DNA from: Rhodospirillaceae bacterium
GTDB taxonomy: Bacteria; Pseudomonadota; Alphaproteobacteria; GCA-2731375
Length of the DNA: 32,800 bases
Reading direction: 5' to 3'
Assembly (NCBI GenBank): GCA_002731375.1
Contig: PCBT01000012.1
Location: forward strand, 1-32,800
Shown here: positions 5,016 to 32,127 of the stretch, piece by piece
How the letters are laid out: every line of letters begins with the position of its first letter
Numbering within the stretch: the stretch's first letter is position 1
The notes under the pieces: model-generated
Databases searched by the model: none
What the model saw: only the letters and a program-made list of their open reading frames with translations
What the model was told of the DNA's origin: nothing
Translations under genes and position numbers: made by a program

Positions 5016-6575
5016 ATGAAAAAAAACAAGTTGCTTATAGTTCTAGATGGTTGGGGGCACTCTAATAACAGGAAGGACAATGCCATCTTAATGGCGAAAA
5101 CGCCTAGCTGGGACTCTTTAATTGCCAATTACCCTAACACGCTAATTGGTACTTCTGGCAACAGTGTTGGTTTGCCAGAAGGGCAGATGGGCAACTCAGA
5201 AGTTGGACACCTAACAATAGGAGCTGGGAGAATCATTGAACAAGACTTTACGCGTATACAAAAGGACATAGATAGCGGAGGTTTTATAGATAATCCGGCA
5301 CTGACTAATGCGCTTAATTCTGCTAATCAGGAAAATGGGGCGGTTCATATTATCGGGCTGCTTTCTGATGGCGGTGTCCACTCTCATCAAAAACACCTTC
5401 ACGCTATGCTTGATATGACAAAGCAAAAAGGCTGTAAAGAGGTTTATTTTCATTTAATTGCTGATGGCAGGGATACGCCGCCACAAAGCCTCGCAACGTT
5501 TGTCTTTGAACTTGAAGAGAAGATAAAAGAACTAAATACAGGCAGAATTGCGTCTATTGTTGGTCGCTTCTATGCGATGGACAGAGATAATAGATGGGAG
5601 AGAATAGAAAAAGCCTACAACTTGCTGACAACTGGAAAGTCTGAATACACTGCTGCTAGAGCTGATACAGCGATACAGAATGCCTACGATCGTGGCGAAA
5701 GCGATGAGTTTATCGCTCCGGCCGTGCTCTCCGGCTATACCGGCATGGCCGACGGCGATGCCATCCTGATGGCTAATTTCCGCGCCGACCGGGTGCGCCA
5801 ATTGCTGGGCGCTTTCCTCGACCCGGCCTTCGAAGGATTTGCCCGCCCGCGCCGCCACAGCTTCGCCGCCGCTTTGGGCATGAGCGAGTATTCCAGCGCG
5901 CTAAACAAGCTAATGACCTGCATGTTCCCCCATACGGCGCTCAAAAATGTACTGGGCGAGACAGTCTCCGCCGCCGGGCTGAAGCAGTTGCGCCTGGCCG
6001 AGACCGAGAAATACGCCCATGTGACGTTTTTTCTGAACGGCGGCGAGGAAAGGGTTTTTGCTGGCGAAGAGCGCGTTCTGGTGCCCTCGCCGAAAGTCGC
6101 GACCTATGATTTGCAGCCCGAAATGTCCGCGGCGGAGGTCACGGACAAGCTGGTCGCCGCCATTGCGTCGGTGAAATACGACCTGATCGTGGTCAACTAT
6201 GCTAATTCCGATATGGTGGGCCATACCGGTAAGCTGGAGGCGGCGGTGCTGGCAGTGCAGATGATCGACCGCTGTCTGGGCCGTTTGTGCGCCGCCTTGG
6301 ATGCTGTCGGCGGTTGCATGTTGATTACCGCAGATCATGGCAATATCGAAATGATGCGCGATCCTGAAAGCGATGGCGCCCATACGGCACATACCACGGG
6401 ACCGGTGCCGGTACTGTTGGTCAATGCGCCTGATGAACAAGCGCAATTGCGGGATGGCAGCCTAGCAGATTTGGCGCCCACGCTGTTGGCAATAATGGGG
6501 CTGAAGCCACCAGCTCAAATGACGGGCCGTTCCTTGCTCGCGCCTCCGGACCAGGCCATGCGGCACCATGGTTAG
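5016..6575 (+). CDS. gpmI: 2,3-bisphosphoglycerate-independent phosphoglycerate mutase, composite of two genomes
   Basis: A 519-residue Mn-dependent glycolytic enzyme interconverting 3- and 2-phosphoglycerate. Visible motifs are VLDGWG (9-14, metal Asp11), the phospho-serine loop GNSEVGH with Ser61, ADGRDTPP (149-156) and, near the end, NYANSDMVGHTG and ADHGNIE. Length and motif order are normal, so the product may be functional. The gene is odd in composition. Codons 1 to about 224 are AT-rich with A/T third positions like the genes on the left, and from about codon 230 they are strongly GC-rich like the genes on the right. The change lies within about 5,685-5,720, in the conserved RGESDEFI segment. 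It overlaps the next gene by 8 bases. No clear Shine-Dalgarno precedes its ATG. Confidence 0.9.
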   Translation: MKKNKLLIVLDGWGHSNNRKDNAILMAKTPSWDSLIANYPNTLIGTSGNSVGLPEGQMGNSEVGHLTIGAGRIIEQDFTRIQKDIDSGGFIDNPALTNALNSANQENGAVHIIGLLSDGGVHSHQKHLHAMLDMTKQKGCKEVYFHLIADGRDTPPQSLATFVFELEEKIKELNTGRIASIVGRFYAMDRDNRWERIEKAYNLLTTGKSEYTAARADTAIQNAYDRGESDEFIAPAVLSGYTGMADGDAILMANFRADRVRQLLGAFLDPAFEGFARPRRHSFAAALGMSEYSSALNKLMTCMFPHTALKNVLGETVSAAGLKQLRLAETEKYAHVTFFLNGGEERVFAGEERVLVPSPKVATYDLQPEMSAAEVTDKLVAAIASVKYDLIVVNYANSDMVGHTGKLEAAVLAVQMIDRCLGRLCAALDAVGGCMLITADHGNIEMMRDPESDGAHTAHTTGPVPVLLVNAPDEQAQLRDGSLADLAPTLLAIMGLKPPAQMTGRSLLAPPDQAMRHHG

Positions 6576-7935
6576 GGTAAGCTTCATCGCATTGGCATTA
6601 CCGGCGCTGTTGCTGTGTGGGCTCGGCGCCTCCGGCGCGGTTGCCGCCGAACGTAATGAAGTGCGGCGCGATATAGAGGCGACGAAGGAATCGATTGCCG
6701 CCGGGCGGAAACAACAACGCGCCCTGGCCCATCAGGCCCGGGCAATCCGCGACCAGGTCGATGGCCTGCGTATCCGCGTCGCTTTGGCGGCGAATCGGGT
6801 GCAGCAGGAAGAGGTCGCATTGGGCGAGATCGAAGAGCGTTTGGCACTGTTGCGGCGCCGCAACGCGGAACATCATCGCCAGCGTGGTCTGATGCGTGAA
6901 GGCCTGGCGCGTTCCGTCAGCGCCCTGGCCCGGTTGGAGCGGCAACCCGCGGCGGCGCTTTTGGCCGCGCCGGGGAGCATGCTGGATGCGGCCCGTGCCG
7001 GCCGCCTACTGGCGGCCGCTCTGCCGGCCCTGCATCGGGACGCGGCCAAGGTTGGTGAATTACTTGTGGCCGCCGATACGGTGCGCCGCCGGCTGGATAG
7101 CGAACAACGGCGCCGGGTGGCCAAGGTGGCTGCCTTGTCCGGCCGCCGCCAGGAACTGCAATCCCTGTTACAGGAGCGGGTATTGGTGGAACGGCAGTTG
7201 CAGCAGGCAGGAACTGCGGAGGGTGAGCGTCTGGCCGCATTGGTAGGCAAGGCACAGGATTTGCAAGGCCTGCTACGGCGCCTGGATGCGGCGGAGCGAT
7301 CGCGCGCTGCGCGGCAAACCGGTGTCGCGGCCGACCGGAAGGAGCATGAGGCCGCGGTGCGCCAGGCCGAGGATCTGGCTAAGCAACTGGCCGAGCGCCG
7401 CCGCTACAAGTTGGCCGCCGAAATGGCTCGGGCCTTGGCCGACCCAAAGGCAAAAAACGGCACCGAAGGGAAAGCACAAGATGCGGTATCGCCAGCCAGG
7501 CAACGTCTGGCCTTGGCGCCGCGGCAATTGCCGTTTTCCAAGATCCGCGGCCGTCTGCGCCTGCCCTCCAAGGGCCGACGGGTCGGACACTTTGGGGAAA
7601 GTACTGGATTTGGTTCACGGGCCCAGGGTGTCACACTACGAACGGCTGATCAGGCGCAGGTTGTCGCGCCCTATGACGGCCGGGTGGTTTACGCTGGTAC
7701 GTTTCGGAAATACGGTCTGATCTTGATCATCTCGCATGGTGAGGGATACCATACTCTGCTGGCCGGTCTGTCGCGGCTGCAGGCGGTGGTCGGGCAGTCA
7801 TTACTTACGGGCGAACCGGTGGGTCGCATGGGTGGGGATGGCAAGCGGTCTCTATATATAGAATTACGGCGCAAGGGGACGGCGATAAATCCGACCTCCT
7901 GGTGGTCGAGCAGCCGTGAAAGGGCGAGTGGATGA
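6568..7935 (+). CDS. EnvC-type murein hydrolase activator (degenerate M23/LytM)
   Basis: A 455-residue exported protein. It has a signal peptide (hydrophobic residues about 6-20, cleavage near AVAA-ER at 26-27), long charged coiled-coil stretches (about 28-130 and 180-290) and a C-terminal LytM/M23 domain (about 350-450). The catalytic M23 HxH motif is replaced by YIELRR near residue 432, and the first zinc site is also not evident. It is therefore expected to be an activator of amidases rather than a hydrolase, as EnvC is known to be. It overlaps gpmI by 8 bases and the downstream protease gene by 4. The gpmI-envC-ctp order is common in proteobacteria. Its composition matches the GC-rich side only. 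Confidence 0.85.
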   Translation: MVRVSFIALALPALLLCGLGASGAVAAERNEVRRDIEATKESIAAGRKQQRALAHQARAIRDQVDGLRIRVALAANRVQQEEVALGEIEERLALLRRRNAEHHRQRGLMREGLARSVSALARLERQPAAALLAAPGSMLDAARAGRLLAAALPALHRDAAKVGELLVAADTVRRRLDSEQRRRVAKVAALSGRRQELQSLLQERVLVERQLQQAGTAEGERLAALVGKAQDLQGLLRRLDAAERSRAARQTGVAADRKEHEAAVRQAEDLAKQLAERRRYKLAAEMARALADPKAKNGTEGKAQDAVSPARQRLALAPRQLPFSKIRGRLRLPSKGRRVGHFGESTGFGSRAQGVTLRTADQAQVVAPYDGRVVYAGTFRKYGLILIISHGEGYHTLLAGLSRLQAVVGQSLLTGEPVGRMGGDGKRSLYIELRRKGTAINPTSWWSSSRERASG

Positions 7936-9272
7936 TGAAGATTTTGATCGGTGGCCGGGCCGCGAAAAGCATGCTGGCGCTGTACACGCTCGTCATCCTG
8001 CTGGCGCTGCTCCTGGTAACCTTGCCGGGACCGGTGCGGGCGGCTAATGATGGTATCTATCGTCAACTGAACCTGTTCGGCGATGTCTTGGAGCGAATCC
8101 GCGCCGACTATGTCGAGGAGGTGGATGACCCTGAACTGATCGAGGCCGCGATCACGGGTATGTTGCGCTCTCTCGATCCGCATTCTTCCTACATGCCGCC
8201 CAGGGCGTATCGCGATATGCGGGAACAGATCAAAGGTGAATTTGGCGGTCTTGGTATTGAAGTGACCATGGAAAACGGCCTGGTCAAGGTGGTCTCACCC
8301 ATTGACGACACGCCGGCGGCGCGCGCCGGTATGAAGGCAGGGGATTATATTACTCAGCTTGACGATACCCCGGTGATGGGCTTGACCTTGTCTGAGGCGG
8401 TGAAGAAAATGCGCGGCCCGGTGAACTCGGAAATCCGCCTGTTGGTGGCCCGGCAAGGCGTGGAAAAACCATTCGAGGTAAAGATCATCCGCGACGTCAT
8501 CCGCGTGCAGTCTGTTCGCTCCCGCCTGGAAGGCGATATGGTCTATCTCCGCATCACTTCGTTCACGGAGCAGACCGACAGTGGCCTGGAAAAAGCCATG
8601 GTCAGGCGTAAGGCTGAATTAGGCAATAAATTCAAGGGTGTGGTGCTGGATTTGCGCAACAACCCGGGCGGCGCCCTGGATCAGGCGATTGCCGTCTCGG
8701 ACGCTTTTCTGGACAAGGGCGAGATCGTTTCGACCAGAGGCCGGCGGCCGGAGGAAACCCATCGCTACAACGCCAAGGTGGGGGATTTGGCCCAAGGTTT
8801 GCCGGTGGCTGTGTTGATCAATAGCGGTTCGGCTTCTGCCTCGGAGATTGTCGCCGGCGCGTTGCAGGATCATCATCGGGCCCTGGTGATCGGCACCAAG
8901 TCCTTTGGCAAGGGATCGGTGCAAAGCATCATACCCCTGCAGGGGCATGGCGCCATTAGGTTGACCACGGCGCGCTATTACACGCCATCGGGCACCTCCA
9001 TCCAGGCCAAGGGGATCGAGCCAGATATTACGGTGGAACAGGTCCGGGTGGAGCGGGCAAAAAACAATCAACGGCGCAGCGAAGCGGATCTACCAAAGCA
9101 TTTGAAGGCGGAAAAGAAAAAAGCTCCCGCGCCGATGCCGAAAAATCATACCAACGTAAAACGCAATGGCGATGGCGTCGGCAATATCGTCAGACCACGT
9201 GATTTTCAATTGAGCTATGCCCTGGATCTGCTGCGCGGCATGGCCCTTATACAACGGCGTAATGGCGACTAG
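7932..9272 (+). CDS. S41 carboxyl-terminal processing protease (CtpA-like)
   Basis: A 446-residue periplasmic serine protease that trims or degrades envelope proteins, often cell-wall hydrolases. It has an N-terminal signal or anchor (about 13-37, ending VRAAND), a PDZ domain (about 100-185) and an S41 catalytic domain. The catalytic dyad is Ser302 (GSASASEIVAGALQD) and Lys327 (SFGKGSVQ), spaced 25 residues as in Prc/CtpA. VVLDLRNNPGG (237-247) is the typical core strand. The start overlaps the EnvC-like gene by ATGA. An adjacent EnvC-type activator and a Ctp protease both act on peptidoglycan remodelling, which fits a shared operon. The C-terminal 90 residues are charged and low-complexity. 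Confidence 0.93.
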   Translation: MMKILIGGRAAKSMLALYTLVILLALLLVTLPGPVRAANDGIYRQLNLFGDVLERIRADYVEEVDDPELIEAAITGMLRSLDPHSSYMPPRAYRDMREQIKGEFGGLGIEVTMENGLVKVVSPIDDTPAARAGMKAGDYITQLDDTPVMGLTLSEAVKKMRGPVNSEIRLLVARQGVEKPFEVKIIRDVIRVQSVRSRLEGDMVYLRITSFTEQTDSGLEKAMVRRKAELGNKFKGVVLDLRNNPGGALDQAIAVSDAFLDKGEIVSTRGRRPEETHRYNAKVGDLAQGLPVAVLINSGSASASEIVAGALQDHHRALVIGTKSFGKGSVQSIIPLQGHGAIRLTTARYYTPSGTSIQAKGIEPDITVEQVRVERAKNNQRRSEADLPKHLKAEKKKAPAPMPKNHTNVKRNGDGVGNIVRPRDFQLSYALDLLRGMALIQRRNGD

Positions 9273-24987: not shown

Positions 24988-25449
24988 ATGACAGATACAT
25001 CCGCCTTCGAACGCAGCCATGACATTTTGATAGACGCGCCGGCCAAGGCGGTGCTGGATTATATTTCCAACCCCAATTCCTGGTCGGAATGGATCGCCGC
25101 CTCGCACGAAATGGATAGCCCCAACCGGCCGCTGGTTGTCGGCGATACCTTTTGCGAACAATGGCACACGCGTACCGGTCCGGCGGTTTTGAATTGGCGC
25201 GTCTTGCAGTGTGAGCCGCCCCATTTGTGGATCGCCGAGACTGGGACTCAATTTATCGGACCAATTATTGCCCGTTACGATGTGGAGCAAGTCGGCGATC
25301 AGGTGCGCTATACCCGCACCATACTGAACCCGGCCCGGCCCAAACCACCGACGGCCGAGATGATCGAGCGGATCGATGCCGAAGCCAAGGTTTGCCTGGA
25401 AAAGATCAAACGTAATGTCGAGGCACGGGTCGCCGCCGGCACACTATAG
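24988..25449 (+). CDS. SRPBCC (START-like) family protein
   Basis: A 153-residue protein with the START/polyketide-cyclase-like helix-grip pattern. The N-terminal strand with HDILIDAPAKAVLDYISNP is followed by WSEWIAAS, then alternating strands, and a long C-terminal helix (about 120-150) would line the ligand pocket. Such proteins bind hydrophobic ligands or act as cyclases or hydratases. Upstream there is only a weak A/G-rich Shine-Dalgarno. It is 36 bases before the acyl-CoA dehydrogenase gene in the same direction and may be the first gene of the operon that ends in the selenoprotein. The ligand is unknown. Confidence 0.85.
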   Translation: MTDTSAFERSHDILIDAPAKAVLDYISNPNSWSEWIAASHEMDSPNRPLVVGDTFCEQWHTRTGPAVLNWRVLQCEPPHLWIAETGTQFIGPIIARYDVEQVGDQVRYTRTILNPARPKPPTAEMIERIDAEAKVCLEKIKRNVEARVAAGTL

Positions 25450-25485: not shown

Positions 25486-26643
25486 ATGGATTTCAGTTTA
25501 AGCCCCGAGCATCAAGCCCTGAAGGATATGTCCCGGCGTTTCGTTGAGACCGAGTTTCCACGGGAGAAAATTCTGCGATGGGTCCACGACAAGGTGGAAC
25601 CGCCGCGCGAGGCATTCTTGAAGCTTGGTGAACTGGGCGTGTTTGGCTTTCTGCTGCCGCCTGAATATAGCGGCCTGGAGAAAGTAGACCCCACGGGCAT
25701 GGTGGTTTTCGTCGAGGAGCTGTCCCGCGCCTCCTCCGCCCTGGCGACCCATTATGGCCGTGCCGCCGTGATCGTCGGGCCGCAGATCGCGCGATTTGCC
25801 TCGCAGCAACAGAAAGATCTGGTTCTGCCCAAGGTGGTGCGTGGCGAGGTTCAGTTGGCGCTTTGTCTGACCGAGACGGAGGCCGGCTCCGACGCCGCTG
25901 CCATCTCTACGCGGGCGGAGGAGCAGGCGGACGGATCGTATCTGATCAATGGCACCAAGATGTATAATAGCCAGATCGAAAGTGCCGGCTTTGCCGTCAT
26001 CGCCGCGCGCACCGATCCTGATAAACCGAAGCATGACGGCATTACGTTGTTTCTGGTGGAAAATCCCGGTCAGCGGCCAGAGATCGAATACCATCGGATC
26101 GAAACTCTGGGCATGGCCATGATCCCGACCTATTCCATTGCCTTCAATGACCTTCATGTCTCGGTGGACGCCATTATCGGTGGCCGCGGAAATGGCTGGC
26201 AAGGATTACTAGGCGGTCTGGACAACGAACGTTTCTACCATGGTGCCATTGGCGTCGGCGCGGCGCAAGGCATCATCGACATGGTGCTTGACTATGTGAA
26301 CCAGCGCATCGCCTTTGGCCGGCCCTTGGGACGCTTGCAGGCGATACGTCACAAATTAGTTGATATGCAGATGGCTGTGGACAGCGCGCGGCTGCTGACG
26401 TACCGGGCAGCCTGGAAGTTGGAGAATGACAGCAGCTGCCACAGGGAGGCCTCCATGGCGAAGGTTGCCGGCGCTGAGGCCTATATGATGGTTGCGCATC
26501 AGGGCCTGCAGCTGTTGGGTGGTTTCGGCTACAGCGTGGAAAGTGGTCTGCCTATGCACTTTGCGGACGCAAAATTATTTGAGATTGGTGGCGGTGCCAT
26601 GGAAATCCAGCGTAATATCATTGCCAAGGAAATGGGCCTCTAA
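25486..26643 (+). CDS. Acyl-CoA dehydrogenase family protein
   Basis: A 385-residue flavoprotein with the complete acyl-CoA dehydrogenase layout. The N-terminal helical domain spans about 1-115. The beta domain has the FAD/substrate signature LCLTETEAGSDAAAI, then GTKMYNSQIESA. The C-terminal helical domain has RIAFGRPLGRLQAIRHKLVD and QLLGGFGY, and ends with IGGGAMEIQRNIIAKEMGL. Members oxidise the alpha-beta bond of acyl-CoA esters and pass electrons to ETF. The base at the common YEGT position is not obvious because the motif reads FEIGGG, so substrate class cannot be assigned. It sits between the SRPBCC gene and the 351-residue unknown protein. Confidence 0.92.
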   Translation: MDFSLSPEHQALKDMSRRFVETEFPREKILRWVHDKVEPPREAFLKLGELGVFGFLLPPEYSGLEKVDPTGMVVFVEELSRASSALATHYGRAAVIVGPQIARFASQQQKDLVLPKVVRGEVQLALCLTETEAGSDAAAISTRAEEQADGSYLINGTKMYNSQIESAGFAVIAARTDPDKPKHDGITLFLVENPGQRPEIEYHRIETLGMAMIPTYSIAFNDLHVSVDAIIGGRGNGWQGLLGGLDNERFYHGAIGVGAAQGIIDMVLDYVNQRIAFGRPLGRLQAIRHKLVDMQMAVDSARLLTYRAAWKLENDSSCHREASMAKVAGAEAYMMVAHQGLQLLGGFGYSVESGLPMHFADAKLFEIGGGAMEIQRNIIAKEMGL

Positions 26644-27722: not shown

Positions 27723-27751
27723 AGTTTAAATACCTCAGGAAGGGGATCGTA

Positions 27752-28276
27752 ATGACATTGCAGGTATTGGACCCGAGTAGCGAGATGGCGACGGAGCTGG
27801 GCAACCCCGCGCCGCGCCTAGCCTCGCTCCAGGGCAAGACCGTTGGCTTTATCTCCAACGGCAAGGAAGGCACTGTTGGGTATTTTTCCCATCTCGACAA
27901 AATGCTGCGGGATGAGTTCGGTGTCGCCGAGGTGATCGTGCGGGTGAAATCGAACTACAGCGCACCCGCTGACCCGGCCATCGTAGCGGAAATTTCACGA
28001 TGGGACGCAGTCATCTCGGGCCTTGGCGATTGAGGCAGTTGCTCGTCGTGCAGTTTGCATGACGCAGTAACAGCAGAGCGACTAGGTGTCCCAGCGATCG
28101 GCGTCATGACGACGCAATTCGTCAGCGCGGCGGAATTGATGTGCCGTGTCTTGGGCATGCCGGACTATTCATTCGGTGTGATTGACCATCCCGTGAGCAG
28201 CGCCGATGATGCGGGTCTGGCGGTCATGGCGTGTAGCACCATTGATCAGGCCAGATCGCTGCTATTGCGGGATTAG
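27752..28276 (+). CDS. Selenoprotein with U-G-S-C motif; in-frame TGA at 28031-28033 read as Sec
   Basis: A 174-residue protein if the TGA at codon 94 is read as selenocysteine. The frame before it ends ...DAVISGLGD and continues without any other stop as U94-G-S-C97-S-S-C100-S-L-H-D-A, then 70 more residues to a TAG. The downstream part reads as sound protein (ERLGVPAIGVMTTQFVSAAE, then IDHPVSSADDAGLAVMACS). This matches my recollection of the UGSC (seleno)protein family, whose Cys-containing forms have CGSC at this site. A strong hairpin fitting a bacterial SECIS begins right after the TGA. AGGAAGGGG at 27737-27745 is an excellent Shine-Dalgarno. The Sec-Cys pair suggests a redox or electrophile-binding site. 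The selenocysteine machinery (selA, selB, selC, selD) is not in the window. Alternative: a premature stop in a decaying gene, which the intact downstream frame and hairpin argue against. Confidence 0.9.
28035..28074 (+). promoter_or_regulatory. Candidate bacterial SECIS hairpin
   Basis: By hand folding, 28044-28052 (CGUCGUGCA) pairs with 28056-28064 (UGCAUGACG), with one G-U pair, around a GUU triloop (28053-28055). After a single bulged C at 28065, the stem continues with GUUGCU (28038-28043) against AGUAAC (28066-28071). It then extends past an A-A mismatch with two more pairs. There are 17 pairs in all. The loop starts 19 nt after the UGA and its first base is G, which agrees with the published bacterial SECIS consensus (loop of 3-14 nt, G in the first two positions, about 16-37 nt from the UGA). 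It would recruit SelB-GTP-Sec-tRNA. Confidence 0.8.
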
Positions 28277-28403: not shown

Positions 28404-29108
28404 ATGAGCAGCGAACAGACTTTGGATGAGGGTGAGAGTACCGCTGACTGTGCGGACAATGAAACCCGTATTACAATGGAAATGCTGCACGCGGTAGATG
28501 GCGAGGAGAGCCTATCACAGCGTGGCCTAGCGGCACGCCTGAACATCGCTCTGGGGCTGACCAATGCCTATCTGAAACGTTGCGTCCGGATGGGTTTGGT
28601 CAAGGTGCGGCGAACTCCGTCGAATCGCTATGCCTACTACCTCACCCCCAAGGGTTTTGGCGAGAAGTCGCGATTGACGGCGAACTATCTTTTCCGCTCC
28701 TTCGACTTCTATCGCAAGGCCCGAAACCAGTGCGACCAATTGCTTGGTGAAGCCGCCGACAGTGGGCTGTGCCGGGTTGCCCTTGTGGGCGCTGGCGAAC
28801 TGGCGGAAATCGCACTTTTATGTGCTCTGCAACATGAGGTCGAGGTGGTGGGCGTGGCCGACGAAGGCGCAACTGCGAACCGTTTTCGCCATGTCGATCT
28901 GGTCCGCGATCCGACCTCTCTGCCCGCTTTTGATCTGATCCTGATCTGCGATGCAAAAGACCCCCAGGGCAGCTTTGAAAAACTGGCTGGCCAATTCGGT
29001 CCGGACGCGATAAGAGCGCCTGGATTGCTAAAAATTTCCTCGCCTCTACTTCGTGACGGCCCAACCGGCGAAGTGGTGGATATAGACTCATTGGAGACAC
29101 CATCATGA
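28404..29108 (+). CDS. Winged-helix regulator with C-terminal Rossmann-like domain
   Basis: A 234-residue protein. Residues about 20-90 form a MarR-like winged helix: helix-turn-helix SQRGLAARLNIALGLTNAYL (38-57) and the wing RRTPSNRYAYYLTPKGFGEK. Residues from about 122 start a nucleotide- or sugar-binding Rossmann-like fold with CRVALVGAGELAEIALL, similar to the PglD/CoA-binding type. Proteins of this plan are often annotated as EPS-associated winged-helix regulators at the head of glycan loci. It overlaps the NusG-like gene by ATGA. It probably senses a metabolite and controls the downstream nonulosonate genes and itself through the inverted repeats upstream; this is inferred. Confidence 0.82.
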   Translation: MSSEQTLDEGESTADCADNETRITMEMLHAVDGEESLSQRGLAARLNIALGLTNAYLKRCVRMGLVKVRRTPSNRYAYYLTPKGFGEKSRLTANYLFRSFDFYRKARNQCDQLLGEAADSGLCRVALVGAGELAEIALLCALQHEVEVVGVADEGATANRFRHVDLVRDPTSLPAFDLILICDAKDPQGSFEKLAGQFGPDAIRAPGLLKISSPLLRDGPTGEVVDIDSLETPS

Positions 29109-29620
29109 CCTCGCCCTCAACTCAGTGGTATGCGGTATACACGCATACCCGGACGGAGCGGTGGGCGCGCAGCAACCTGTGGGAGCGTGGTTTTGAGGTC
29201 TATTTACCGGAATACCTTAAGGAACGGCGGAACGCGCGCAAGACCGATTGGGTCAATGCGCCGCTGTTTCCGCGTTATCTGTTTGTCACCGCCGATCCGA
29301 AGTCTCCCGGCCGGCGTTCCATCAACACCGCCCCTGGCGTGGTTAGTCTGGTTAGCTTTGGCGAGCGGCCGGGCCTGATAGCGGATGCGGTGATACAGGA
29401 AATCCGTAGCCGCGAGGACGAGGCCGGCCACGTTCGATTGGTGGATCCGAACACGTTGGCGCCCGGTGATCTGGTGCGTTTGGAAAGCGGTGCCATGGCG
29501 GATCATGTGGGCCTGTTCGAGCGCTGTGGCGATGCCGAACGGGTGGTTATCCTGCTCAATCTGCTGGGCCGGGAGGTCAGGGTCAAGGTGCCGTCGAACA
29601 GCATTGCCCGGGTGCTGTAA
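29105..29620 (+). CDS. NusG/RfaH-like transcription antiterminator
   Basis: A 171-residue NusG paralogue. The NGN domain (about 7-100) starts QWYAVYTHTRTERWARSNL, close to the RfaH/NusG opening, and includes PLFPRYLFV. The C-terminal KOW domain (about 115-171) includes APGDLVRLESGAMADHVGLF and ends with VKVPSNSIARVL. It is RfaH-like because it sits at the start of a surface-polysaccharide operon and is separate from the housekeeping nusG, which normally lies next to secE and ribosomal genes. It would help RNA polymerase read through the long glycan operon. It overlaps the winged-helix gene by ATGA. Confidence 0.88.
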   Translation: MTSPSTQWYAVYTHTRTERWARSNLWERGFEVYLPEYLKERRNARKTDWVNAPLFPRYLFVTADPKSPGRRSINTAPGVVSLVSFGERPGLIADAVIQEIRSREDEAGHVRLVDPNTLAPGDLVRLESGAMADHVGLFERCGDAERVVILLNLLGREVRVKVPSNSIARVL

Positions 29621-29642
29621 GGCAGGCTGTAGATGGCCTCGT

Positions 29643-29666
29643 TATTTGTCTGGCCGGTAACAAATA
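29643..29666 (+). promoter_or_regulatory. Inverted repeat just before the M20 peptidase start
   Basis: TATTTGT (29643-29649) and ACAAATA (29660-29666) are perfect complements separated by 10 bases. The right arm abuts and shares one base with the AGAGG Shine-Dalgarno of the next gene. There is no T-run, so it is not a standard terminator. It could be an mRNA hairpin affecting initiation, or a protein site. Function is unknown. Confidence 0.35.
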
Positions 29667-29677
29667 GAGGGCACAGT

Positions 29678-31081
29678 ATGACGCGTGACACAGCCATTGC
29701 CAAAGCGGCGGATCATTTCGATAGCGGTGCCTTTTTCGAGGACCTGTCCCGCCGGGTTGCCATTCGTTCCTCGGCCCAGGTCCGCGAACTGCGCCCTGAA
29801 CTGGAGCGCTATCTAGTTGAGGAAATGACCCCCATGCTGGAGGGTCTTGGTTTCACGGTGGCGATCCATGCCAATCCTGACCCCCGTGGCGGCCCGTTCC
29901 TGGTGGCCGAACGCATGGAAAACCCCAACCTGCCCACCCTGTTGAGCTATGGCCACGGCGATGTCGTGCGTGGCTTTGAAGGGGACTGGCGCGAAGACCG
30001 CGATCCCTGGAGCATGGTCAAGGACGGGCAGCGGTGGTATGGCCGGGGCACGGCGGACAACAAGGGGCAGCATTCGATTAATCTCGCCGCCCTGGCGTCG
30101 GTTTTGCAGGTGCGGGGAAGCCTGGGCTTCAATTGCAAGATTTTGCTGGAGATGTCCGAGGAAGTCGGCTCGGTTGGTCTCGGCGCCTTCGCCGCCGGTC
30201 ATTTGCAGGAATTACGGGCGGATCTGTTGATTGCCTCGGATGGGCCGCGTCTGGCGCCGGATCAGCCCACCCTGTTCATGGGTAGCCGTGGCGCCCTTAA
30301 TTTCGAAATGACGATTGACCTGCGCGAGGGCGCCCATCATTCGGGCAACTGGGGCGGTTTGATTTCCAATGCCGGCACCCGCATGGCGAATGCATTGGCG
30401 GTTTTAGTCGGGCCAAAAGGCGAAATTCTGGTGCCGGAGCTACGGCCCGAGGAAATTCCGGCTTCCGTGCGGCAGGTGCTTTCCAGGATCAAGGTCGGCG
30501 GCGGCGATGATGGCCCGGTGGTCGAGGAGGACTGGGGTCAGCCTGGTCTGACGCCGGAGGAGCGGGTGTTTGCCTGGAACGCCTTTGAAGTTCTGGCCAT
30601 GAAGGTCGCCAACCCGGACCGGGTCGCCAACGCCATCCCCCCCGACGCCAAGGCTTGGTGCCAGATCCGCTTCACCGTTGACCGCGATCCCGCCACCTTC
30701 CTGCCCGCCATTCGAGCCCATTTGGATGCCAACGGCTTTCACGACGTCGCCGTGGGGCAGAAAAATGAAGGCTTCGTCATGCGCGCCTCCCGCCTACTAC
30801 CCGATCACCCTTGGGTACAATGGGCCAGTGCATCGTTACGCGAAACAACGGGCATGGAGCCGGCCATCCTACCCAACCTGGGCGGTTCCCTACCCAACGA
30901 TATTTTTGCCGAGACCCTTGGGCTACCCACCATTTGGGTGCCCCATTCCTATGCGGCATGTTCCCAGCACGCGCCGAACGAACACGCCTTGGAACCCATT
31001 ATGCGTGAAGGCCTGCAGATCATGGCGGGATTGTTCTGGGATTTGGGCGAGGGCGATGTGCCGGAATGGAGGACCACATGA
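29678..31081 (+). CDS. M20 family metallopeptidase within nonulosonate operon
   Basis: A 467-residue zinc peptidase. Metal-ligand candidates are His93 (YGHGDVV), Asp127 (GTADNKGQ), Glu161-Glu162 (EMSEEVGS; one the catalytic base), Asp188 (ASDGPR) and a late His in CSQHAPNEH. The dimerisation lid lies in the middle, about 210-330. ATG 29678 has AGAGG at 29666-29670 with a 7-base gap and gives the usual start; an earlier ATG at 29633 lacks a good site. It overlaps the NeuB gene by ATGA. M20 enzymes cleave dipeptides or remove N-acyl groups. In this setting it may trim an N-acyl group of a sugar or precursor, but a housekeeping dipeptidase is equally possible. Confidence 0.85.
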   Translation: MTRDTAIAKAADHFDSGAFFEDLSRRVAIRSSAQVRELRPELERYLVEEMTPMLEGLGFTVAIHANPDPRGGPFLVAERMENPNLPTLLSYGHGDVVRGFEGDWREDRDPWSMVKDGQRWYGRGTADNKGQHSINLAALASVLQVRGSLGFNCKILLEMSEEVGSVGLGAFAAGHLQELRADLLIASDGPRLAPDQPTLFMGSRGALNFEMTIDLREGAHHSGNWGGLISNAGTRMANALAVLVGPKGEILVPELRPEEIPASVRQVLSRIKVGGGDDGPVVEEDWGQPGLTPEERVFAWNAFEVLAMKVANPDRVANAIPPDAKAWCQIRFTVDRDPATFLPAIRAHLDANGFHDVAVGQKNEGFVMRASRLLPDHPWVQWASASLRETTGMEPAILPNLGGSLPNDIFAETLGLPTIWVPHSYAACSQHAPNEHALEPIMREGLQIMAGLFWDLGEGDVPEWRTT

Positions 31082-32127
31082 GCGTGAGAGGTATCAAGAT
31101 CGGCGGCCGGGCCGTCGGCGATGGCGCCCCGGCGCTGTTGATTGCCGAGGTCGGCCAGGCCCATGACGGTAGCCTGGGCACGGCGCATGCCTTCATTGAT
31201 GCCTCCGCCGCCGCCGGTGCCGATGCGATCAAGTTTCAGACCCATATCGCGGCGGCGGAATCCACCCTGGATGAAGAATTCCGGGTTAAGTTCTCAAAGC
31301 AAGACGCCACCCGCTATGATTATTGGCACCGTATGGAATTCACACCCGAGCAATGGGCTGGACTGGCGGAACATGCAGCCGAGAAAGAACTGATTTTCCT
31401 CAGTTCCGCATTTTCCGTCGCGGCGGTGGAACTGCTGGACAAACTGGGCCATCCGGCCTGGAAGATCGGCTCTGGTGAATATAAATCCATGGATCTGATG
31501 GCAGCCATGGCGGCGACGGGGGGGCCAATATTGCTCTCCACGGGGATGAGCCGCTGGGCCGAGATCGCCGACAGCGCCGCCGGCATCCGTGCCTTGGGTG
31601 TCGATCTGGCGCTTTTTCAATGCACCTCGCGCTATCCCACGCCCCTGGACGCGGTTGGTCTGAACGTGATTGATGAATTGCGCGATGCTCATGGCTGCCC
31701 GGTTGGCTTGTCCGATCACAGCGGCAGCCCGTTTCCCAGCCTGGCCGCCCTGGCCCGCGGCGCCGATATGATCGAGGTGCATGTCACCTTTGACCGCGGC
31801 CTGTTCGGCCCCGACGTACCGGCATCATTGACCTTTGACCAGTTTCGCCAGGTCGCTGACGCCCGAGAAGCTTTTGCCCAGATGGATGCCAATCCGGTTG
31901 ACAAGGACGTGATCGCCGATGAACTGGAAACCATGCGCGGCCTGTTCACCAGAAGCCTCGCGCCCACGCGGGCACTTGGCAAGGGCACCGTGTTGGCGGC
32001 GGATATGGTAACCGCCAAGAAACCAGGCACGGGCATTGCCGCGACCCGGTTGGAGGAAATGCTGGGCCGTACCTTGGCCCACGACGTGGCTGCTGACCGT
32101 TTGCTGCGTCTAGAGGATCTGCAATGA
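31078..32127 (+). CDS. NeuB-family nonulosonic acid synthase
   Basis: A 349-residue synthase that condenses phosphoenolpyruvate with an N-acyl hexosamine to make a sialic-acid-like nonulosonate. The TIM-barrel starts LLIAEVGQAHDGS (20-32) and has AGADAIKFQT (46-55), KIGSGEYKSMDLM, LLSTGMS, LFQCTSRYPTP and GLSDHSGS, all hallmarks of the family. A C-terminal SAF/antifreeze-like domain (about 285-349) is present. The usual NHNG in the first motif is AHDG here. GGAGG at 31068-31072 supports the ATG at 31078, which overlaps the upstream stop, rather than the in-frame ATG at 31066. It overlaps the NeuC-like gene by ATGA. Whether the product is neuraminic, legionaminic or pseudaminic acid cannot be decided. 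Confidence 0.9.
   Translation: MSVRGIKIGGRAVGDGAPALLIAEVGQAHDGSLGTAHAFIDASAAAGADAIKFQTHIAAAESTLDEEFRVKFSKQDATRYDYWHRMEFTPEQWAGLAEHAAEKELIFLSSAFSVAAVELLDKLGHPAWKIGSGEYKSMDLMAAMAATGGPILLSTGMSRWAEIADSAAGIRALGVDLALFQCTSRYPTPLDAVGLNVIDELRDAHGCPVGLSDHSGSPFPSLAALARGADMIEVHVTFDRGLFGPDVPASLTFDQFRQVADAREAFAQMDANPVDKDVIADELETMRGLFTRSLAPTRALGKGTVLAADMVTAKKPGTGIAATRLEEMLGRTLAHDVAADRLLRLEDLQ

Follow-up and report, generated by a model that had tools for sequence, protein, structure and literature searches.

Introduction

In a 32,800-nucleotide stretch of a Rhodospirillaceae bacterium genome (hereafter the window) an open reading frame starts with ATG at 27752, runs for 93 codons, meets TGA at 28031-28033 and continues for another 80 codons to TAG at 28274-28276. 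Is this TGA a stop codon or a codon for selenocysteine (Sec), and what would a protein read through it do? The residues around the TGA read GLGD-U-GSCSSC. On these grounds a first-pass annotation had given the same frame, with exact coordinates, and had proposed an "unreported-looking" member of the UGSC family of (seleno)proteins. Our analysis leaves little doubt about the first question: the gene almost certainly encodes a UGSC selenoprotein, judging by its sequence and that of its relatives. The feature coordinates are collected in Table 1.

Table 1. Features at and upstream of the UGSC locus in the window.
Feature	Position	Strand	Remarks
Polyketide_cyc2 (SRPBCC-type) protein	24988..25449	+	upstream, same strand
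Acyl-CoA dehydrogenase	25486..26643	+	23 nt before partner gene; not among the commoner families in the neighbour tally
Partner gene, unnamed family, 351 aa	26667..27722	+	29 nt 5' of UGSC gene
RBS-like AGGAAGGGG	27737..27745	+	6 nt 5' of UGSC ATG, by eye
Predicted UGSC selenoprotein gene	27752..28276	+	174 aa, Sec94, stop TAG
In-frame TGA, predicted Sec codon	28031..28033	+	one TGA shared by own-genome copies and family matches
Bacterial SECIS-type hairpin	28035..28074	+	apical stem 28044-28064 conserved, loop AGUUU 28052-28056

The family itself is not new. It is named in Pfam, NCBIfam and papers and has been in print since at least 2008, so that "unreported-looking" does not hold. The passages seen of the GOS paper count 255 Sec versus 21 Cys UGSC genes (PMC2398784), which places UGSC with the more frequent selenoproteins of aquatic metagenomes, and UGSC-motif selenoproteins are mentioned, in the part consulted of a further paper, in genomes whose tRNA-Sec has the anticodon CUA (PMC5330540). 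The published passages on the family give no function. Remote homology to the Sec domain of the Grd/Prd selenoenzymes, a nearly constant partner and thioredoxin links were not found in print, in a search that left subscription journals mostly outside. The gene thus belongs to a known selenoprotein family, as the first-pass annotation recognised, and the new part is the system which we propose around it.

Results

The read-through product matches Pfam PF24696 with E 3e-44 and 151.6 bits (gathering cut-off 25 bits), and residues 4-171 align with positions 1-170 of 172, i.e. with the whole domain. The N half (93 aa) alone scores 52.2 bits and the C half (80 aa) alone 78.1 bits; since each half matches independently, the read-through match goes beyond chance, and the family proposed by the first-pass annotation stands. 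U94-G-S-C97 is present in the window protein. In an alignment of 54 UGSC sequences, picked from the window and 80 loci, Cys or Sec at position 94 and Cys97 are invariant. Against NCBIfam NF041046 (UGSC_fam, "UGSC-containing protein") the window protein, with C put for U, scores 108.8 bits and does not reach the equivalog cut-off of 125; a close relative (L063) scores 116.6 bits. By these scores the gene is assigned to PF24696 and not to the NCBI equivalog. It is like the described family in its full-length match, in U-G-S-C, in Sec/Cys exchange and in a hairpin after the UGA, and differs from NF041046 in its score below the cut-off.

The source genome (4.55 Mb, 96.2% complete, 6.66% contaminated; window on contig C12) has profile matches to SelA (579.7 bits), SelB (426.5 bits) and SelD (381.4 bits) and a tRNA-Sec with anticodon tca (UCA; 73.1 bits, contig C7), so that selA, selB, selD and tRNA-Sec, which had been left to be looked up, are all present. 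selA adjoins selB on contig C63, and one of two selD matches above cut-off has an in-frame TGA of its own. Seven UGSC genes of this genome each carry a single TGA at the motif, and contig C73 opens with an eighth match, a 3' fragment. Across 41 genomes, 16 of them with UGSC matches and up to eight per genome, 96 of 97 matches contain exactly one in-frame TGA, the exception being a 3' fragment, and in all 35 of the 96 whose loci were inspected the TGA is placed at the motif. TGA ends eight of 28 ORFs picked from the window's ORF list and is therefore an ordinary stop there, which makes the UGSC recoding local. Of 398 genomes drawn evenly from the phylum, five, the window's own included, have UGSC matches; hence the family is patchy.

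The hairpin claimed by the first-pass annotation is real. Its minimum free energy in the window is -24 kcal/mol, a stability equalled by 4 of 200 dinucleotide shuffles and by one of 200 synonymous shuffles (z -2.59). Over 111 post-TGA regions (each required to hold one TGA, 51 clean bases and sufficient partner codons; the own-genome copy L022 dropped out) the mean z against synonymous shuffles is -1.21, with 19 positive values. Merging of identical regions leaves 107, in which 7.64 of nine apical pairs are formed on average versus 5.08 in synonymous shuffles; 106 of the 107 exceed their own shuffle mean and the window forms all nine pairs. One apical pair is C-G in 92 sequences and G-C in 13. 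The hairpin loop is supplied by the serine codon at Sec+7. All 91 Sec genes with such a serine use AGT; they are related sequences and not independent trials, and the background is 197 AGT among 2199 serine codons (9%) in partner genes. AGT also occurs in four of four further Sec genes (L153, L154, L157, L192). Where the Sec+7 residue is Cys its codon is TGT in 17 of 19 cases, and the four Cys homologues with serine at Sec+7 use TCG, AGC, TCC and TCG, none of them AGT.

Any scenario that takes the TGA for a true stop, be it in a pseudogene, through a sequencing error or between two separate proteins, has the stop codon itself in its favor and nothing beyond, and we regard it as vanishingly improbable. 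It is at odds with the single TGA throughout the family, with the uniform Sec+7 codon and with the Sec machinery of the genome. In the recoding scenario SelB, tRNA-Sec(UCA) and the hairpin just 3' of the TGA would insert Sec at residue 94.

Homologues with Cys at the Sec position, also proposed as a check, do exist (L140, L030, L031, L032, L034); with the Sec machinery present too, neither of the refuting conditions named by the first-pass annotation applies. In the 398-genome draw one homologue without an in-frame stop (L156) is a Cys version; in L155, listed with a single TGA, the motif codon is TGC, so that its TGA lies elsewhere. Cys versions occur in haloarchaeal plasmids too. Plasmids of Sporomusa (L190, 4314-6038) and Vibrio europaeus (L191, 4395-6080) carry a UGSC-like domain fused to the partner with DMGTS at the site of the Sec/Cys motif; not every member can therefore be a selenol reductase, and these copies suggest that the scaffold also serves without a selenol. 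Both fusions adjoin aconitase X and DUF126 genes.

The first-pass annotation had foreseen that gene callers would report a short protein ending at the TGA, and two public records bear this out. In Paracoccus ferrooxidans pFER4 (L192, 4426-4995) the UGSC gene was deposited as a pair of hypothetical proteins, of which the first stops at the TGA, and in Acidovorax p2-T1 (L033, 5929-6219) a deposited 96-aa hypothetical protein ends inside the UGSC match. Some deposited genomes thus still truncate or split UGSC genes.

The gene directly upstream encodes a partner that accompanies UGSC nearly everywhere. Its family is present in 41 of 41 UGSC loci (L022-L062, with L022 and L029 being two ends of one gene), and in the reverse, partner-seeded search a UGSC gene was found in 76 of 80 loci; of the remaining loci L089, L097 and L135 stop at or soon after the partner and L134 does not. 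In the own-genome copies L028 and L022/L029 UGSC and partner form a single chain. The latter fusion leaves one end of contig C73 and continues at the other, as in a circular replicon or with overlapping contig ends. A UGSC/"Unknown_1" fusion is reported in the passages seen of the GOS paper (PMC2398784), and our guess is that "Unknown_1" is the same partner family. Pairwise distances of UGSC and partner correlate at 0.64 over the 112 loci with exactly one gene of each kind (maximum 0.12 in 500 permutations); among six own-genome paralogues, 95 of the 720 possible pairings fit no worse than the true one.

None of 53 partner proteins, picked in the same way as the UGSC sequences, has a convincing Pfam or NCBIfam family match, and no clear structural neighbour of the partner's AlphaFold model (pLDDT 91.3) was found. 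Profile search gave no relation to GrdE or PrdA, and Gly_reductase PF09338 had no match among the 53 partners or in the genome, where the search controls were silent too.

The acyl-CoA dehydrogenase gene, the partner and UGSC probably share an operon. Genes next to UGSC loci encode CoA-transferases, lyases, phosphosulfolactate synthase homologues, amidohydrolases, TRAP, ABC and MFS transporters and acyl-CoA dehydrogenase. As we read them, these neighbourhoods point to catabolism of varied acids; the neighbour genes differ widely from locus to locus.

The UGSC family is likely a remote homologue of the Grd/Prd Sec domain. A scan of the 54 UGSC proteins with 18,950 NCBIfam models (E up to 10) gave matches to glycine reductase selenoprotein B for 27 of them (best E 2.1e-6), to GrdF for 13, to the general selenoprotein B model and to PrdB for 10 each, and to GrdH for five, and the five commonest families after UGSC were all glycine/sarcosine/betaine/proline reductase selenoproteins. 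Ten members were also scanned singly: six matched the GrdB model with E values of 0.1 or lower (residues ~72-162 on positions ~328-407 of 431), four did not, and the matches are confined to the region around Sec. The window's own protein matched no Grd/Prd model in the NCBIfam scan, so that its relation to them rests on family membership. An hhalign comparison of UGSC with 29 GRDB-like proteins, drawn from this genome and others and carrying an F[PE]LG motif, placed Sec on Sec over 87 columns with a score of 32.1. None of 100 column shuffles reached this score (best 22.5); the hhalign probability is just 34-38% and identity over the 87 columns 16%.

By sequence comparison this link is one of remote homology and not of membership. 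In ten UGSC members the scores for GrdB/selenoprotein B (TIGR01917, PF07355) reach at most 23 bits against a cut-off of 602, with 174 aa facing an architecture of ~430 aa, and Pfam GRDB is absent among the 25 families listed, of 29 matched by the 54 members. UGSC is like GrdB, GrdF and GrdH (TIGR01917, TIGR01918, PF07355) in its Sec-xxC, in ~80 residues around Sec that are alignable in half of the members, in the pairing with a second protein, in thioredoxin links and in several copies per genome. In contrast, it is a single ~174-aa domain, its partner family is unnamed and has no profile link to GrdE, and the source genome has no match to GrdA or GrdE profiles, with controls silent as well. 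With D-proline reductase PrdB (TIGR04483) and the PrdB-like selenoproteins of its own genome it shares U-x-x-C, the Sec-on-Sec alignment and the genome, whereas identity is low and the partner is not PrdA-like by any profile match. This source genome is rich in selenoproteins: it holds seven PF07355 (PrdB/GrdB-like) matches (L143, L147 and L149-L152 listed), six with an in-frame TGA in U-P-x-C, by eye.

The thioredoxin reductase gene trxB adjoins the UGSC-partner pair in Roseovarius, trxB-trxA does so in Arthrobacter, and in Variovorax trxB lies three genes away; among the annotated plasmid records examined, trxB was seen near the pair in these three only. Also, 12 of 117 partner proteins (from 121 hits) are lengthened by an N-terminal extension that contains CxxC and VPT, L105 being doubtful. 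The extension of L025 matches thioredoxins among PDB entries (best E 0.0044) and has no Pfam match. In the AlphaFold model of UGSC (pLDDT 93.8) strands and helices alternate in the order of a Rossmann-like domain. Its best structure matches are alpha/beta folds of the Rossmann-like kind, and thioredoxin is absent among the 50 matches listed.

Discussion

The recoding signs, the family and the partner linkage can be read from the sequences. From the thioredoxin links, the Grd/Prd relation, the partner and the gene context we infer a reductase in which Sec94 would be the nucleophile and Cys97 the resolving thiol. In this proposal, to which we give an even chance, UGSC would be the selenol subunit of a thioredoxin-recycled reductase made substrate-specific together with the adjacent partner protein. 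Sec94 would sit at a helix N-terminus, and the Rossmann-like alpha/beta domain around it would be a distant homologue of the Sec domain in GrdB-type selenoprotein B and PrdB. Its selenolate would attack the substrate, or a partner-bound form of it, and expel the leaving group; Cys97 would resolve the intermediate to a Sec-Cys selenenylsulfide, and thioredoxin/thioredoxin reductase would recycle it. Several UGSC-partner pairs per genome would provide different substrate specificities, as GrdB-GrdE pairs do. In the parts consulted of the literature, cleavage of a Sec selenoether in glycine reductase is proposed to yield a selenenylsulfide, thioredoxin being the donor (PMC10298544; for D-proline reductase the same paper argues against thioredoxin). 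GrdB-GrdE copies are described as substrate-specific, a proposed C-F cleavage included (PMC10838667), and one genome can hold several such B complexes (PMC10298544, PMC10838667).

UGSC might also be a general thiol-disulfide or peroxide reductase of thioredoxin-like fold, with the partner as substrate or scaffold. The UxxC motif and the thioredoxin links of the pair would suit such a role, which we consider unlikely: the modelled fold and its best structure matches look Rossmann-like, the profile matches lead to Grd/Prd with no thioredoxin among the 25 families listed of 29, and several loci have catabolic neighbours. More improbable still is a service of the pair in selenium or sulfur handling (delivery, detoxification) instead of catabolism, although selA and selB directly follow the UGSC gene in L132, and Paracoccus has selB nearby, with genes for DsrE, TusA and cysteine desulfurase upstream. 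The existence of Cys versions, those of haloarchaeal plasmids included, speaks against it, and up to eight matches per genome and catabolic neighbours fit it poorly.

Somewhat more speculatively, UGSC and partner may represent a second widespread branch of the Grd/Prd type: thioredoxin-recycled two-protein reductases that cleave carbon-heteroatom bonds, with substrates specific to each pair, beyond amino-acid-fermenting anaerobes, the partner belonging to no family or fold recognised so far. By record titles the carriers include Alphaproteobacteria, Burkholderiales, Chloroflexi, Actinomycetota and haloarchaea. With the Grd/Prd link, the near-constant partner and a naturally occurring Cys version next to trxA-trxB, the function of UGSC can be tested directly.

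Two further observations concern the window itself. Right after the UGSC gene, positions 28404-32127 encode a MarR_EPS-like regulator (under its cut-off), a NusG-like protein, an M20 peptidase and a NeuB-like synthase, perhaps the start of an exopolysaccharide-type cluster. Far from the UGSC locus, the first ~5.7 kb of the contig look like a chimeric assembly join inside gpmI (5016-6575): GC content jumps from ~41% (window 1-~5700) to 60% within this one ORF, and contig C47 repeats window positions ~5989-8635 at 99% while matching the earlier part of gpmI weakly, at 79%.
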